Position numbers and translations under genes: made by a program
Assembly: GCA_023142905.1 (NCBI GenBank)
Contig: JAGLIP010000006.1
Span: 1 to 15,055, forward strand
Direction: 5' to 3'
Length of the DNA stretch: 15,055 nucleotides
Source: Candidatus Aenigmatarchaeota archaeon
GTDB lineage: Archaea; EX4484-52; B79-G9
Part shown: positions 2,774-12,968 of the stretch, piece by piece
How positions within the stretch are numbered: position 1 is the stretch's first letter
Layout: each line of letters starts with the position of its first letter
Notes under the pieces: model-generated
Told to the model about the DNA's origin: nothing
The model's input: only the letters and a program-made list of their open reading frames with translations
Database searches by the model: none

Positions 2774-2783
2774 AAATATAAAT
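2774..2783 (+). promoter_or_regulatory. TATA box of the orphan gene
   Basis: AAATATAAAT is centred near 2778, predicting transcription from about 2804-2806 and a leader of roughly 19 nt before the ATG at 2824. An earlier in-frame ATG at 2782 overlaps this box and is therefore unlikely to be used. GGTG at 2815-2818 is a plausible SD site for the ATG at 2824. Confidence 0.55.
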
Positions 2784-2823
2784 GTTTCTTGGGTACTTAG
2801 AAGTAATTACAATTGGTGTTGTT

Positions 2824-4683
2824 ATGGATGTAGAATCACTTTACGAAGAAATATCAACGGAGAATACCTTTCCACAAACTAAAACGGGAATTAAAGGCCT
2901 TAAAAAAAATAGTGACTTTAACGGGTGTTGTAATGCTTACGGTGTGGATCCGGATGCATTCATAATATATGCGGTTGAGCAATTAGGCGATAATGAACAA
3001 ATAGACCCTAATATAGCTCCTTCATCTTTGCCGCCCGAGACGGATGAAATATTCTCGGGTATTAAGAAGACCAGACAGCAAGAAATATATTCTCAAAAAT
3101 CAGAAACCCCCGTATTTGGCGGTAATCGGCTTTCAGATGAAGACGGAACAGAAGTTATAAACTATTTATTCGACAAGGATTTTGATGATGTATCTATAGC
3201 CTATTTAAAAGAAAACTTAAAAACAAATAATGCCGTCATTCTTGACACGCCGTATATAATTGAACTTGCGCTTTCGAAAATATTGCAAACAGACAAATAC
3301 GAAAATTCAAATACGGAATATTATTGGGACACACCAAAAATAACCAAAAATGAAGAGTTTGTTTCAAGATTAGACAAACTATACGAGTTCATTACAAAAG
3401 AAAGAATTGAAAACGAAAGATTAGATGCGGAAGATATATACATCCCTGCAGTAAATGCGATAATGTCAAATAATTTCAAGTCAATAAAACAAAACACACT
3501 TAACGAAATATTTGAAGAACTAAAGGCGCGGGGCAAGGTAGACAAAACATTTGAAGAATTCATGAAAGAAAAAGGGAATTCAAAGATACAATCTAATGAG
3601 TTCCATCCTGCTGTTTTAATATATAATGCTCTTGAGAAAGAAATATTTGAAAAAGATTTTACAAATTCCGCGCTTGAGTGGTATGAAAACATTTCGGGAA
3701 CGGGATTTTCTAAATGTTTTGATGGCTCCGCCGTGCCTCCGGAAAAAGTAGAAGAATCAATGAATGGCAGACTAACAACTGGGTATCATTTATGCCTTGA
3801 TGGTTCTGGTCGGAGCATGCGCAAAAATATCGGTATGGGATATATAGAATACATAAACACAATAAAACTGGCTAAAGACTTTCTAAAAAATGCAGGATTT
3901 AACGAAGACGCTGAAACCATAAATAAAACTATAGAAGAAACAGTAAATGCATCTGTGGCACTTAATGTAATCAAGCAGCAAAAAGATAAAAGCGCCGATG
4001 GCACAAGAGATATTTTTTTGGATGTTATTGAATTCATGAATTCTGAAGGTTATTCTTTCCCGCCAAAAGATACCCAAAACCTACTGAAAGGATGGTATTT
4101 GGAAGAAACTAAATCTAAAAAAGGCGGTAAAAAAGCATATAGGCCGTATGGTCGATATTTTAAAACGAAAGAAGAAAGTATTGATTCAAAAATACTCCGA
4201 ATGTATCAAGAATTTGGCGGAAAGAAAAAAGACCTTGTTGTAAAAACGCCGGCGCAGATCTTTAAAGAACAAAAGATTAAAGAACAAAAGACTGCTGCTG
4301 AAAGACAAAGACAACAAAGAGAAGCTGATTTTCAGCGCGAAATGGGTGGGGAAACAGCACGAAGAGAAGAATTGCGAAGATTTGAAGAACCAGAATACAA
4401 AAGATTTCAAGAAGAGCCCGGAGAGGAAATAGAATTCTATGTAACAAATGCAAAGATTCGAACAAAAACTATTGAATTGAGGGGCAGACACACCACCGAT
4501 GGAAAATCCAAAGTTGTTGGTGAGATACCAAAAAGCGAATTTATCGATACCTGTGCTGCGGAACCGACAAGAGACGAGTTATTAAACAGTGTGTTTACAG
4601 GAATTGTAGCAAAGACCAAAGGCAAACATCTTGTATTAACCGATGTTGGCTTACATGATTCAGGATTATATTGTTCGCTGTAA
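2824..4683 (+). CDS. Uncharacterised 619-residue protein with coiled-coil segment
   Basis: I do not recognise this protein. It has no signal peptide or membrane segment and looks soluble and acidic to neutral, rich in Asn, Lys and Glu. An N-terminal region (~1-100) contains a Pro-rich spacer. A long, mostly helical middle carries two similar Cys motifs, KCFDGSAVPP and LCLDGSGRS, about 30 residues apart. A basic stretch (KKGGKKAYRPYGRYFK) is followed at residues ~477-533 by a highly charged coiled coil with a tandem KEQKIKEQK. A predicted beta-rich C-terminal domain of ~85 residues (EIEFYVTNAKIRTKTIELRG to LHDSGLYCSL) ends the protein and could be a small barrel. The start at 2824 is preferred because the ATG at 2782 overlaps the TATA box. 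The gene has its own promoter and lies between TBP and MCM. Its wobble positions look more AT-rich than its neighbours, which may mean lineage-specific or acquired origin. Confidence 0.8.
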   Translation: MDVESLYEEISTENTFPQTKTGIKGLKKNSDFNGCCNAYGVDPDAFIIYAVEQLGDNEQIDPNIAPSSLPPETDEIFSGIKKTRQQEIYSQKSETPVFGGNRLSDEDGTEVINYLFDKDFDDVSIAYLKENLKTNNAVILDTPYIIELALSKILQTDKYENSNTEYYWDTPKITKNEEFVSRLDKLYEFITKERIENERLDAEDIYIPAVNAIMSNNFKSIKQNTLNEIFEELKARGKVDKTFEEFMKEKGNSKIQSNEFHPAVLIYNALEKEIFEKDFTNSALEWYENISGTGFSKCFDGSAVPPEKVEESMNGRLTTGYHLCLDGSGRSMRKNIGMGYIEYINTIKLAKDFLKNAGFNEDAETINKTIEETVNASVALNVIKQQKDKSADGTRDIFLDVIEFMNSEGYSFPPKDTQNLLKGWYLEETKSKKGGKKAYRPYGRYFKTKEESIDSKILRMYQEFGGKKKDLVVKTPAQIFKEQKIKEQKTAAERQRQQREADFQREMGGETARREELRRFEEPEYKRFQEEPGEEIEFYVTNAKIRTKTIELRGRHTTDGKSKVVGEIPKSEFIDTCAAEPTRDELLNSVFTGIVAKTKGKHLVLTDVGLHDSGLYCSL

Positions 4684-8356: not shown

Positions 8357-10864
8357 ATGTCCAACTGCACGAAGTTCATTGATTTAGCCGAAAGCGAAGT
8401 ATCCTTATTAGGCCAAAAAGCATCAGGCATTACAGCACTATTTAATTCCGGATATCCGATACCATCGGGTTTTGTTATTTCGGCATCATTGTTTGACTCG
8501 TTTCTTGCGCAAACAGGCCTAAAAGAAAAAGTATGGGATGTTTTGGCTCATGCAACCCTTGATGATTACCCTGCGGCGTCTCAAATTTCAAAACAGCTAC
8601 GGGATGCTATTCTCTCAATCGAATTCCCGCAGGTTCTTGAAGACGAAATATTGGAATGCTACAGAAAATTTAATTTATCCGAAGATATGCAAAAACTGAA
8701 TGATGTTGCAAAAAGCATAATAGATGCTGGAAGAAGCGATGTTTATGTCTCTGTACAGGCATCTCCAATAGCGGCACAGGAACAGTCAAGTTTTTCCGGG
8801 ATGCAGGACACACATTATTATGTGCATGGTACCGTAGGTGTAATAAAGGCAATACAAAAATGCATGGCATCTTATTTTTCTTTTCGCTCAATAATATACA
8901 GACTTAAGAACAATATACCGCACAACAGCCTTATGACAATAATTGTTCAGGAAATGATTCTTTCAGAAAAATCAGGTGTTATAGCCACAGCAAATCCTGC
9001 CAATGGCTCAAGAACGCAAACAGTTATTGAAGGGTTGTGGGGTCTTGGTGAGGGTGTTACCGGCGGGGTGGTTACCCCGGACAAATATGTAATCGACAAA
9101 GAGACCGGACATATCATTGATAAAAAAATAAGCATCAAAGACTGGCAGTATTCTGTTGACCCTATGAATGGCGGCCTTCAGAAAGACCAAATACGGGAAA
9201 CAAAAAAAGAAGAAAGGGTGTTGAGTGTAAATGAGCTTAAAGTTCTTTTTTCATTAAGTGAAAAAATACACAACCATTTCAGAAGGCCTCAGATGATTGA
9301 GTGGGCAATATACAAAAACCGGGTGTATATCCTGCAGTCAACACCATTATATATCCCGCAACAAGACATGATGCAAGAACCACCTACAGAAACTCAAGGG
9401 ACAACAATAGCGGGGTTCGGTAATTTTTCCAAGACAAAAACAGGAATTGTAACATTCATATACAATGATGTTGATTTTTCAAAACTTTCAGGTCCTGATG
9501 TAATTGTTTCGGGCTATGCAACAACAGACCTTGTGCCTGCGCTTCTTAATGCATCGGCAATTGTCACAGACGAAGGCGGAACCCTTTCGAATATGGCAAC
9601 AATTGCAAGGGAATTTGGAATTCCTATGGTCTGCGGCACAAAGCAGGCAACCCGAAAAATACCGGAAGGCGTAACTGTTACTGTAAACGCAAAAGAAGGT
9701 ATTGTTTTTGAATCCCGTCCGCCGGCACCAATGCCTGCTCCTACTGCATATCCTCCGCAATACCCACCTCAGGAAACGCAGCAGCAAAACACGCAATTTT
9801 ATCCACAAACGCAAGGTATGCCTCAACAGCCCGAACAGAATATTCCTGCGCAAACAGCACAAAATTACCCATCCCAATCAAATCCACAGCCGCAGCAATT
9901 CCCGCAGCCAACAGCATACCCAAATACACAGAATCAGCCAGAAGTTCCAATAGAGCCACAGGCACCCCAAAACACACAACAGGGGCATTCTAATCAAAAT
10001 GAAATGCCGACAAATCCAGGGCATAACCCACGCGAACCCACGCAGACCGCAATAAAAGTAAAATACAGCATTTCTGATTTAACAGAACTTAATTCAATAC
10101 AGGAAAAGCATGATGGTATTGGGTTTATAGACCTTAAGGCATTTTACAGCAGAAATACTGCGCCACAAACAGAAACACGGGAACCTATGCCGAGCATCAA
10201 TGGATTTACTCCAAGCACAAACTTCCCGGAACCGACAATGACCATTAATTCAAATGCAGTTTCTAAACTCATTGAAAAATTTTATCCAACAGAAGTGTGG
10301 CTTAAGATATCGGCAGTTGGTGAAAAAACAATGCAAAGTGATATTTCATGCCTAATTGATGTTTCTGCACGAGGTTACACAAACATTGGTGTGATATTGC
10401 CTTCGATCGACCATCCTGCAAAAATACAGGCCATAAGGACGATGGCACAACAGGCGGGTCTTGACATGTCAAGACTGAAATTGGGTGTTCTTATTGATTC
10501 GCCGACACAAGTATTCGTTTTAGAAGAACTTGTGAAAGAGGGTATAAACTTTGCAGTATTGGATGCAGAAAAACTGGCAAAAACATTTGCATCAGAGCCG
10601 CAGCCAAATCATGCAGCTACAACACATCCGGCATTCATAGCGGCAATGCGCCAAGCCATAAGTATATTAAACAAAAGCAAAGTTTCAACAACTATTAAAG
10701 GGTTTTCAGAAGACATATCTTTTATAGACAATATGATTTCATTTGGCGTTGAATCATTTACAGTTACTGCCCATACATCACAAACAGCTCTTCTTTCTAT
10801 AGAGCGCGCCGAGAAAGCAAAAATGATAAATCTCATGAAAGAGAGACACCAAATGCAATTCTGA
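8357..10864 (+). CDS. Phosphoenolpyruvate synthase-like protein, probable pseudoenzyme
   Basis: An 835-residue protein with the full layout of PEP synthase/pyruvate phosphate dikinase: ATP-grasp domain (~5-330), phosphohistidine domain (~370-445) and TIM-barrel-like PEP domain (~566-835). The fold is recognisable in LLGQKASGITALFNSGYPIPSGFVIS, VIEGLWGLGEGV, VTPDKYVIDKETG and EFGIPMVCGT. The catalytic residues are replaced. The swinging histidine (CHAAI in active enzymes) is Asn412 in TLSNMATIARE. The nucleotide-site Arg of VRSSA is Gln134, the Asp of DIEWA is Met313 and the Arg of QARP is Thr329, though K21, E315 and Q327 remain. The barrel lacks RGASR, EVPSN, SNDLTQ and the CGQ cysteine. Residues ~453-565 form an inserted Pro/Gln/Asn-rich linker. 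An active PEP synthase is therefore unlikely; a binding, structural or regulatory role is inferred. MetRS follows 28 nt later, probably in one transcript. Confidence 0.9.
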   Translation: MSNCTKFIDLAESEVSLLGQKASGITALFNSGYPIPSGFVISASLFDSFLAQTGLKEKVWDVLAHATLDDYPAASQISKQLRDAILSIEFPQVLEDEILECYRKFNLSEDMQKLNDVAKSIIDAGRSDVYVSVQASPIAAQEQSSFSGMQDTHYYVHGTVGVIKAIQKCMASYFSFRSIIYRLKNNIPHNSLMTIIVQEMILSEKSGVIATANPANGSRTQTVIEGLWGLGEGVTGGVVTPDKYVIDKETGHIIDKKISIKDWQYSVDPMNGGLQKDQIRETKKEERVLSVNELKVLFSLSEKIHNHFRRPQMIEWAIYKNRVYILQSTPLYIPQQDMMQEPPTETQGTTIAGFGNFSKTKTGIVTFIYNDVDFSKLSGPDVIVSGYATTDLVPALLNASAIVTDEGGTLSNMATIAREFGIPMVCGTKQATRKIPEGVTVTVNAKEGIVFESRPPAPMPAPTAYPPQYPPQETQQQNTQFYPQTQGMPQQPEQNIPAQTAQNYPSQSNPQPQQFPQPTAYPNTQNQPEVPIEPQAPQNTQQGHSNQNEMPTNPGHNPREPTQTAIKVKYSISDLTELNSIQEKHDGIGFIDLKAFYSRNTAPQTETREPMPSINGFTPSTNFPEPTMTINSNAVSKLIEKFYPTEVWLKISAVGEKTMQSDISCLIDVSARGYTNIGVILPSIDHPAKIQAIRTMAQQAGLDMSRLKLGVLIDSPTQVFVLEELVKEGINFAVLDAEKLAKTFASEPQPNHAATTHPAFIAAMRQAISILNKSKVSTTIKGFSEDISFIDNMISFGVESFTVTAHTSQTALLSIERAEKAKMINLMKERHQMQF

Positions 10865-10892: not shown

Positions 10893-12968
10893 ATTAAAAA
10901 AATTCTTATTACATCCGCCCTGCCGTATGCAAACGGCCCGCTTCATTTAGGACACATTGCATCTACTTATCTTCCGGCAGACATTTTTGCAAGATATAAT
11001 CGGCTCAAAAAAAATAATGTTGTTTTTGTGTGTGCTACAGACGAGCACGGCACGCCAATAGAGCTAAATGCTATGAAGCAAAACATGAAACCTGAAGAAT
11101 TTGTAAAAAAATGGAGGGGCGAACATGCACGCGATTTCAAGAACGCGCGTATATCTTTTGATGAATTCCATTACACGCACTCGAATAAAAACAAGGAAAT
11201 GGCGGACTATTTTTTCAATAGCGCAAAAAAGAAAGGATATATCTATGAAAAAGAGATTGAAGCAACATACTGCCCAAAAGATGAACGGTTTCTTCCGGAC
11301 AGATTTGTAAAAGGCATATGCCCTTTCTGCAGGGAAAAAGACCAATACGGGGACTCATGTGAAAAATGCGGAAAAACATACAATTCTACAGAACTTTTAA
11401 CTCCTGTATGTGCACTCTGCGGAGCTACGCCCATCCAGAAGAAGACAAAACACTTCTTTTTTAAGCTGTCCTCGTTTTCAAAAGAGCTTGAAGACTGGCT
11501 TTTGAAAAACAAGAATCTTCAAAGCGATGTAGTTAATTATGTTAAAAACTGGATTAAAGACGGCCTAAAGGACTGGGATGTCACAAGAGACGGTCCTTAT
11601 TTCGGCTTTAAGATTCCGGGAGAGAAAAACAAATACTATTATGTCTGGCTTGATGCACCAATAGGCTATGTCTCATCAACAGTTTCTTGGGCTGGCAAAA
11701 ACAAAAAAAATTGGGAAGAGTTCTGGAAAAAGGATGCTGAAATATATCATTTTATCGGAAAAGACATTGTTTATTTCCATTATCTTTTCTGGCCGTCACT
11801 TTTATCCTCTGCCGGTTTTTCGCTTCCGCACAAAATTCCTACACGGGGGTATCTTACAGTCAATGGTAAGAAAATGAGCAAAAGCAGGGGAACATTCATA
11901 CTTCTTAAAGATTTTCTTGAAAAATATTCGGCAGACTATTTAAGGTATTATTTTACAGCAACTACACCGAATAATACAACAGATGTTGATTTTTCCTGGG
12001 GATTGTTTGAAAAAAAGATCAATAAAGAGCTTTTAAATGATTTCGGCAATTTCGTCCACAGGGCGCTGACTTTTGCAAACAATAATTATGGCGGCCAGGT
12101 TCCGAAAAATATCAAAGTCTCAAAAAACGAGCTATTTTTGAAAAAAATAAATGCACTCCCTCAAGATGTTGGTGCGGAATTCGATGCTGTGGAGCTTAAG
12201 CGGGGTCTTGAAAAAATTATGGAATTTGTCAGACACTGCAATAAATACTTCAATGAAAACGAGCCATGGAAAAAGATAAAAGAAGACAAAAAGAAGGCAG
12301 ACGAAGTTGTTTATCTTTCCATAAAGGCAATAGCGACACTCTCCATTGTAATTGAGCCTGTGATACCAGACACTGCTAAAAAATTGCAGGACATGCTTAA
12401 CTTAAAAAACCCTGAGTGGGGTGTTGTTGAGCCCAATGAAAAAATAAAAAAACCAAAAGTCCTCATTGAGAAAATAGAATGCAAAACAGAACAAGACAAT
12501 TTTTCAAAACTTGATATTAGAGCTGCTAAAATAACGAATGTTTCTAATCATCCAAAAGCAGACAGACTTTATGTGATTCAACTGGATTTGGGCTTTGAAA
12601 AAAGGCAGGTTGTTGCAGGACTGAAAAAGAACTATGGTCAAAAAGAGCTTGAGGGAAAAACAGTTTGTGTTCTTTACAACCTAAAGCCTGCTAAATTACG
12701 CGATGTTGAGTCAAACGGCATGATTCTTGCAGCTGATGACGGAGAAAATGTGAGTGTACTTTTCGCGCCAAAAGCAAAACCGGGGGATGTGGTTACGGTT
12801 GATGGGATAAAACAGGCGCCTGCAAACTTAATCGATTTTAAGGATTTTGAAGCAGTAAAAATGGAAGTTATAAAAGGAAAACGCGTCTCATACAACAAAA
12901 AAGAGCTTTTAGTAGGCAAAAATGCAGTTGTTGTTGAAAAAGTAAAAATCGGTGCTAAGGTTTGCTGA
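10893..12968 (+). CDS. metG: Methionyl-tRNA synthetase, apparent AUU start
   Basis: Charges tRNA-Met with methionine in the cytoplasm. The 691-residue class I enzyme shows the start block KKILITSALPYANGPLHLGH with HLGH at residues 18-21, the connective-peptide zinc knuckles (C143-x2-C146, C156-x2-C159, C173-x2-C176, plus C127), YVWLDAPIGY, KMSKS at 327-331 and an alpha-helical anticodon-binding domain. A fused C-terminal tRNA-binding OB domain of the Trbp111/EMAPII type runs from about 536 (FSKLDIRAAKI, HPKADRLYV, SNGMILAA). The first ATG in frame is at 11028, 45 codons in and past HLGH, so it cannot be the start. Upstream in frame there is no ATG, GTG or TTG after the previous stop. ATT at 10893, 7 nt after GGAGG, gives the expected N-terminus. 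Confidence 0.95.
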   Translation: MKKILITSALPYANGPLHLGHIASTYLPADIFARYNRLKKNNVVFVCATDEHGTPIELNAMKQNMKPEEFVKKWRGEHARDFKNARISFDEFHYTHSNKNKEMADYFFNSAKKKGYIYEKEIEATYCPKDERFLPDRFVKGICPFCREKDQYGDSCEKCGKTYNSTELLTPVCALCGATPIQKKTKHFFFKLSSFSKELEDWLLKNKNLQSDVVNYVKNWIKDGLKDWDVTRDGPYFGFKIPGEKNKYYYVWLDAPIGYVSSTVSWAGKNKKNWEEFWKKDAEIYHFIGKDIVYFHYLFWPSLLSSAGFSLPHKIPTRGYLTVNGKKMSKSRGTFILLKDFLEKYSADYLRYYFTATTPNNTTDVDFSWGLFEKKINKELLNDFGNFVHRALTFANNNYGGQVPKNIKVSKNELFLKKINALPQDVGAEFDAVELKRGLEKIMEFVRHCNKYFNENEPWKKIKEDKKKADEVVYLSIKAIATLSIVIEPVIPDTAKKLQDMLNLKNPEWGVVEPNEKIKKPKVLIEKIECKTEQDNFSKLDIRAAKITNVSNHPKADRLYVIQLDLGFEKRQVVAGLKKNYGQKELEGKTVCVLYNLKPAKLRDVESNGMILAADDGENVSVLFAPKAKPGDVVTVDGIKQAPANLIDFKDFEAVKMEVIKGKRVSYNKKELLVGKNAVVVEKVKIGAKVC
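12937..12949 (-). terminator. Possible T-rich terminator of GatD
   Basis: Read on the minus strand, about 26 nt past the GatD stop, the sequence gives two T-runs (ATTTTTACTTTTTC). It lies inside the 3' end of the MetRS coding region. With a 6-nt gap between convergent stops, termination of GatD transcripts here would be within the neighbour. Confidence 0.3.

Follow-up and report, generated by a model that had tools for sequence, protein, structure and literature searches.

The closest known system to the protein analysed here is PEP synthase (PPS; pyruvate, water dikinase, EC 2.7.9.2; TIGR01418) in its multimeric archaeal form, represented by the structures from P. furiosus (8a8e) and S. marinus (9dae). 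More distant comparisons were made with PPDK (1dik, 1kbl) and with rifampin phosphotransferase (5hv3 and others), whose His domain is C-terminal according to the alignment. The latter enzyme has a rifampin-binding domain between its other two domains. Pseudoenzymes as such are well known; nevertheless, no description of a PPS-fold family of the present kind was found in the literature searched, from which subscription papers were mostly absent, and the pseudoenzyme matches there concerned PRPS and PGK. A 24-subunit assembly is known for the PPS of relatives (PMC8100219).

The window, i.e. the whole stretch of 15,055 nucleotides that was analysed (contig JAGLIP010000006.1 of assembly GCA_023142905.1, Candidatus Aenigmatarchaeota archaeon), encodes a degenerate PPS-like protein, the features of which are listed in Table 1. 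The reading frame starts with ATG at 8357, and the start Met is common to relatives (M1 invariant in 19 sequences), so that the 835-residue frame and the coordinates given in the earlier note are correct. The domain order (ATP-grasp, swinging domain and PEP barrel) is that of PPS according to both Pfam and the predicted structure, as had been claimed. The PPDK_N match scored 229 bits and the PEP-utilizers match 61 bits, and PEP-utilizers_C, at residues 658–807, reached 19.8 bits, which is below its cut-off of 22.8. The barrel is shortened, and is separated from the swinging domain by a linker of ~113 residues, with pLDDT values below 50 at residues 456–561 of the predicted model. Such long linkers are not general, as they comprise at most 52 residues in 9 of 19 members from the same phylum and 15–41 residues in the 11 dead copies of a second phylum (see below).

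Table 1. Features of the degenerate PPS-like gene and its downstream neighbour (coordinates within the window).
Feature	Coordinates	Strand	Evidence or remark
Degenerate PEP-synthase-like gene, 835 aa	8357..10864	+	Reading frame, Pfam, alignment
ATP-grasp domain (PPDK_N, residues 16–344)	8402..9388	+	K21/E315/Q327 kept; Q134/M313/T329 altered
Y102–V131, 30 residues including a ~15-residue insert, mark of the PPS lineage	8660..8749	+	Length comparison
Swinging (PEP-utilizers) domain, residues 380–448, His-free	9494..9700	+	Pfam, His scan
Asn412 codon, position of the phosphorylated His	9590..9592	+	Alignment
Pro/Gln-rich low-complexity linker, residues 453–565, predicted disordered	9713..10051	+	pLDDT, linker lengths
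Degenerate PEP-binding barrel and C-terminal helix, residues 566–835; without RGIRR segment, NDLTQ and catalytic Cys	10052..10861	+	
MetRS, neighbour	10893..12968	+	Pfam; functional link to the pseudoenzyme not supported

The best solved relative of the window protein was P. furiosus PPS (8a8e; E = 8.6e-84). The eight structure matches with E < 1e-30 were all named PEP synthase, and PPDK accounted for none of the 11 matches listed; accordingly, the sequence is nearer to PPS than to PPDK. The TIGR01418 model of PPS matched the window protein in two pieces, scoring 300.2 and 33 bits, compared with a cut-off of 739.75. The structural comparison called for by the earlier note was positive, in that the C-terminal barrel is predicted to keep the fold that forms the octahedral core in P. 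furiosus PPS. For the ATP-grasp and swinging domains of the model, the best match was rifampin phosphotransferase, from which the protein differs in having a PEP-type barrel (566–835) and a His-free swinging domain.

Residue register was set using P. furiosus PPS (8a8e) and a 55-row alignment in which 23 intact PPS were counted. Residues are discussed in C. symbiosum PPDK numbering, and we take the roles assigned to K22, R92, D321, E323, Q335 and R337 to apply; the Asp of the D321 type and the second Arg, of the R337 type, are presumably the residues of phosphoryl transfer. Titles of PDB entries name K22A and R337A mutants. Window residues K21, Q134, M313, E315, Q327, T329 and N412 were all in register, and the spacing of 12 between the Glu and the Gln equals that in the intact reference. 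Asn412 replaces the phosphorylated His of the swinging domain, three ATP-grasp positions are altered (Gln134, Met313 and Thr329), and the barrel carries K650 for the first Arg, D714 for the Glu, E738 and K739 for the Asn and Asp of NDLTQ, and K781 for the catalytic Cys. EVPS and NDLTQ are gone, and the RGIRR segment is absent. The earlier note, which had described loss at each of these sites along with retention of K21, E315 and Q327, was right in its residue calls. Gln134 proved private to the window, since the 93%-identical relative (G001) has Arg there. In comparison, 13 of the 15 residues considered are present without exception in all 23 intact PPS, and the two RGIRR Arg columns vary among them. 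Only the Lys is kept from the four-residue PPDK signature (K22, R337, His and Cys). Of the columns that are invariant in intact PPS but non-catalytic, the window protein keeps 21/33 in the ATP-grasp domain, 13/23 in the swinging domain and 11/31 in the barrel.

Residues 345–455 contain no His; therefore, a misregistered carrier His is not hidden there, and the note's own counter-case, an active-site His elsewhere in the swinging domain, did not arise. A hidden catalytic Cys was likewise considered and rejected, as the barrel has a single Cys (665), at a long sequence distance from the catalytic position.

Selection was assessed as dN/dS by NG86, using pairs that are not all independent. The window gene and its 93%-identical relative (JAUVEX010000015.1, ‘archaeon isolate CSMAG_334’) gave 0.134, with 0.10 for the ATP-grasp domain, 0.09 for the swinging domain, 0.25 for the linker and 0.12 for the barrel. 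Nine other degenerate pairs gave 0.11–0.17, including one second-phylum pair with dS above 2, and three pairs from the divergent family f6 gave 0.10–0.19, of which the first has dS of 2.7 and the remaining two cover 204 residues; three further degenerate pairs were saturated. Six intact PPS pairs gave 0.04–0.11. With values of ~0.1–0.2, the dead protein is therefore clearly constrained in all three domains, more weakly than the intact enzyme. Between the window's genome and that of its 93%-identical relative, the neighbouring MetRS and MCM genes gave 0.142 and 0.018, respectively. A 633-aa ORF of the window (2782–4683, + strand) without Pfam match, 59% identical between the two genomes, evolves fast, with dN/dS of 0.39 compared with 0.02–0.14 for five other window neighbours.

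The phylum was sampled with 34 genomes from seven families (f1–f7), including the window's own genome (G000). Degenerate PPS-like genes were present in 26 of these genomes and six of the families, in a tally that includes a profile search: 7/11 in f1, 0/4 in f2, 3/3 in f3, 9/9 in f4, 1/1 in f5, 4/4 in f6 and 2/2 in f7. The f6 copies are very divergent, being weak or unlisted in single-protein searches and recovered by profile search, and their count includes one 204-aa piece; the f7 count consists of barrel-only ORFs. Protein and profile searches found no degenerate gene in eight genomes, comprising all four of f2 and four others with completeness of 59–81% (G002, G005, G006 and G008), so the gene can be lost. 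Apart from G001, relatives of the window protein include a partial one in G003 (63% identity over 241 residues) and those of G007, G009 and G010 (37–38% over the first 445–460 residues).

Two observations concern the extremes of this set. The f7 barrels (L058, 4249–4995, and L059, 3468–4220, in G016 and G021) stand alone, without ATP-grasp or swinging part, and adjoin a gene grouped with the TATA-binding protein of the window; the dead-barrel profile gave them scores of 109 and 105 bits, compared with 33–65 bits for three other profiles. The most eroded members, of 616–652 aa in a single frame, are L249 (4735–6693), L250 (4259–6214) and L251 (3010–4860), in G015, G020 and G025; in G015 and G020, a small ORF of 112 aa, similar in sequence, lies beside the gene on the opposite strand.

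A decaying pseudogene, or an error in sequencing or assembly, would account for the fact that every catalytic step is affected and for the eight relatives in which the gene was not found, but we consider it barely credible. The dN/dS values are ~0.1–0.2 across 13 species pairs (not all independent), the phylum's degenerate genes have no internal stops among the matches listed, and the same sites are degenerate in the long copies of five families. Moreover, the 93%-identical relative shares all the substitutions except Q134. Fold retention, loss of catalytic residues and purifying selection, i.e. the general marks of a pseudoenzyme, are all present, and degenerate relatives extend through most of the phylum. 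The note's proposal of a conserved pseudoenzyme is thus upheld, and we hold it to be almost certain that the protein is conserved and catalytically dead.

The residues lost and kept were examined in a long set of 19 degenerate members from f1, f3, f4 and f5, with f6 described apart, and with G003 (241 aa), the C-terminal piece of G014 and two barrel-only ORFs left out. The carrier-His site holds Asn in 7 of them, Asp in 5, His in 3, Arg in 3 and Pro in 1. Because the site varies in this way, Asn is not a phylum-wide rule; the clade with Asn412 that the earlier note had anticipated holds for G000, G001, G007, G009 and G010 and does not extend to the phylum. The R337-type Arg is kept in 1/19 and the D321-type Asp in 4/19, and the barrel Cys and the Asn and Asp of NDLTQ are each kept in 0/18. 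The K22-type Lys is kept in 17/18 and the E323-type Glu in 16/19 (Asp in the other three), followed by the R92-type Arg in 13/19 and the Q335-type Gln in 9/19. At non-catalytic columns that do not vary among intact PPS, retention is 63% in the ATP-grasp domain, 53% in the swinging domain and 51% in the barrel. Within f6 (three members of 616–652 aa and the 204-aa piece), the K22-type Lys and the R92-type Arg are kept; in the three long members, the E323-type Glu is replaced by Asp and the carrier His by Arg, Tyr or Asp; their alignment, in which the catalytic Cys is not aligned, is uncertain further on. Judged from these alignments, the phylum's degenerate members examined have lost putative transfer residues, those with complete barrels have lost the Cys, and most have lost the carrier His. 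The retained Lys and Glu may fit a nucleotide that is bound without transfer; alternatively, their retention may be structural.

The same pattern bears on whether the protein is still an enzyme, in which the ATP-grasp half would perform a changed reaction (e.g. ATP hydrolysis, or phosphate or AMP transfer to a different acceptor) without the relay through the swinging His. The window protein retains K21, E315 and Q327, and G007, G009 and G010 keep the Arg and the Asp too. Re-targeting of the fold has a precedent in rifampin phosphotransferase, which is also the best match for the first two domains in structure. However, the window protein has neither the Asp nor the second Arg, both of which are rare in the long set, as given above, and we judge a changed reaction to be quite improbable.

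The lineage of the family was traced through the Y102–V131 stretch, which comprises 29–30 residues in the phylum's degenerate proteins and 23–30 residues in PPS of a second phylum (that of G037), many of them with AGR near its end, compared with 9–15 residues in intact PPS of other lineages. Nineteen further archaeal PPS have 12–24 residues here, and none of them has AGR; length alone is not a sharp mark, as two of these have 23 and 24 residues and the second-phylum minimum is 23. All 19 scored as intact (13–14 of 14 scored residues), which indicates that the residue scan does not mislabel ordinary PPS as dead. The insert was rejected as a mark of pseudoenzymes only, since intact enzymes of the second phylum (e.g. 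G176, G198, G115 and G526) have the same long stretch and fall on the same side of the tree (support 97). Among the 30 second-phylum loci taken, 17 keep 13 of the 14 scored residues and 13 are partly or wholly degenerate; in the 17, the exception is the first RGIRR Arg, replaced by His in 16 loci and masked in the other. In the 55-row alignment, the intermediates L144 and L147 are outside the intact set, and L088, L090–L092, L143 and L151 are outside the second-phylum set. Three half-altered PPS, L143, L144 and L147 (G146, G235 and G528), keep both the His and the Cys, with 8, 9 and 10 of the 14 scored residues, and are possible intermediates toward inactivation. The PPS profile matches at L128 and L133 (G056 and G310) span an in-frame TAG.

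A quick tree of 46 rows, computed without f6 and f3, separated 33 insert-bearing proteins from 13 others on a branch with SH-aLRT of 97, and the phylum's own intact PPS were among the 13 without insert. The dead proteins of the second phylum nest within its intact ones, with the exception of genus g16, which is joined by G014 with support of 38. An earlier quick tree of 59 rows, with fewer second-phylum rows and eight rows dropped, grouped 19 degenerate proteins of the window's phylum with one g16 protein; both trees have long branches. A single origin of all dead copies was rejected, as the starred branches of the unrooted 46-row tree require a minimum of two switches between the dead and the intact state. 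Because part of the second phylum keeps intact insert-bearing members, catalysis would have been lost at least twice unless it was regained.

Gene order was compared across both phyla. The arrangement L10e, dead PPS, rhomboid and Dph2 on one strand is supported by Pfam in G037 and recurs by similarity in G144 and G206. L10e is upstream of the dead gene in G004, G030 and G019, and L10e and aIF2-beta lie within 2.6 kb of it on the same strand in G020. The window copy has aIF2-beta close upstream and no L10e, rhomboid or Dph2 gene beside it. Intact PPS share the setting, between L10e and the rhomboid gene in G167 and near L10e in G115. The shared order is evidence for an orthologous family and points to a position inherited from the active gene. 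On insert, tree and gene order, the family is assigned to a PPS lineage of two archaeal phyla.

The link with MetRS put forward by the earlier note was not supported, as MetRS is downstream only in G000 and the 93%-identical G001. The downstream side of G003 is cut off, G004 has a class I LysRS there, and G007, G009 and G010 have Dph2. A role in translation would be in keeping with the genes (MetRS, aIF2-beta, L10e, LysRS and Dph2) that flank the dead gene in several genomes, including G020, but immediate neighbours differ between genera, and L10e, together with the rhomboid gene in G167, also accompanies intact enzymes. These neighbours were therefore rejected as a sign of function; the position reflects ancestry first, and such a role appears very improbable. 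The window MetRS (10893) and L066 (~3141, − strand) have no ATG, GTG or TTG at the conserved N-terminus; in the MetRS genes of G000 and G001, an ATT is found ~7 bases after GGAGG and may be the start codon.

A second, intact-looking PPS is present in the window's genome, as the earlier note had suggested looking for, although it is cut by a contig end and only its ATP-grasp part was checked. Across the phylum, a complete PPS with 14/14 scored residues was found in 25/34 genomes and in 19 of the 26 with a dead gene. The copies in G000, G014, G024 and G033 are cut or split but retain every scored residue that is visible, G003 has a 64-residue piece as its second copy, and none was found in G028 and G029. 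The TIGR01418 cut-off was passed in 22 of 38 genomes searched, including 18 of the phylum's 22 with a dead gene (f6 excluded) and four (G131, G121, G037 and G134) of the 15 from the second phylum that have dead copies. Judging by match pattern, nine of the other 11 second-phylum genomes have long frames that resemble PPDK. The window's genome has a third PPDK_N match, which is very divergent and scores 26.6 bits, in a 346-aa frame (L003, G000:C158:623-961).

A working PPS in most of the same genomes is what would be expected if the dead protein were a non-catalytic subunit or regulator that tunes the active PPS, or another enzyme of the PEP–pyruvate node. Regulation of an enzyme by a paralogue is a common role of pseudoenzymes, and the dead gene of G019 is directly upstream of an intact PPS on the same strand (L074, 4861–10046). 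Nevertheless, such adjacency was found in this one genome only, the tree assigns the phylum's active PPS to another subfamily than the dead protein, and 11 of the 15 second-phylum genomes with dead copies, some of them incomplete, lack a PPS above the TIGR01418 cut-off. A C-terminal motif, [AS]RxE[KR][KR], is present in 12/19 and 10/11 dead proteins, compared with 3/12 insert-bearing rows of the intact group, and it is missing from the tails of five active PPS (that of G019 excluded). We regard regulation of this kind as unlikely; among the possible roles, it ranks next after the scaffold considered below.

As a whole, we give about even credence to the following explanation, inferred from the evidence above, by which a redundant old PPS was kept as a non-catalytic, oligomeric scaffold of PPS fold, possibly one that binds nucleotide. 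The old PPS would have been made redundant by a second enzyme (PPS or PPDK), and the dead protein would then have been retained for a structural property, namely assembly and perhaps ligand binding. The likeliest such property would be a homo-oligomeric barrel core, as in the 24-subunit archaeal PPS, which would display the ATP-grasp and swinging domains. As the losses fell on the transfer residues and mostly spared the Lys and the acidic residue that anchor the nucleotide, these arms may bind ATP or AMP without using it, and the protein would act as a scaffold or ligand-responsive partner rather than as a catalyst. As for the present-day role itself, an oligomeric scaffold, with or without nucleotide binding, is proposed tentatively. 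Several findings count against this explanation: the C-terminal motif is missing in its strict form from the window protein, f3 and f6 have Asp for the Glu, with most other sites gone, long linkers are not general, eight of the 34 genomes yielded no dead gene, selection is weaker than on intact PPS, and a complete intact PPS was not found in seven of the 26 genomes. A more specific version, which we consider rather doubtful, would involve at least two replacements in the two phyla, after which PPS was kept as an octahedral core with dead ATP-grasp and swinging domains, serving as a nucleotide-responsive scaffold, with disordered tethers of up to ~240 residues in part of the window's phylum and the barrel alone in one family.

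A single PPS lineage has both intact and dead survivors across two phyla, some of them sharing a gene order. How catalysis was lost while the protein was retained, which seems to have happened repeatedly, can therefore be traced site by site. Small-genome archaea could be credited with PPS on the strength of a gene that is incapable of being one. Beyond annotation, the dead PPS provides a clean test case for the roles of a metabolic-enzyme fold beyond catalysis.
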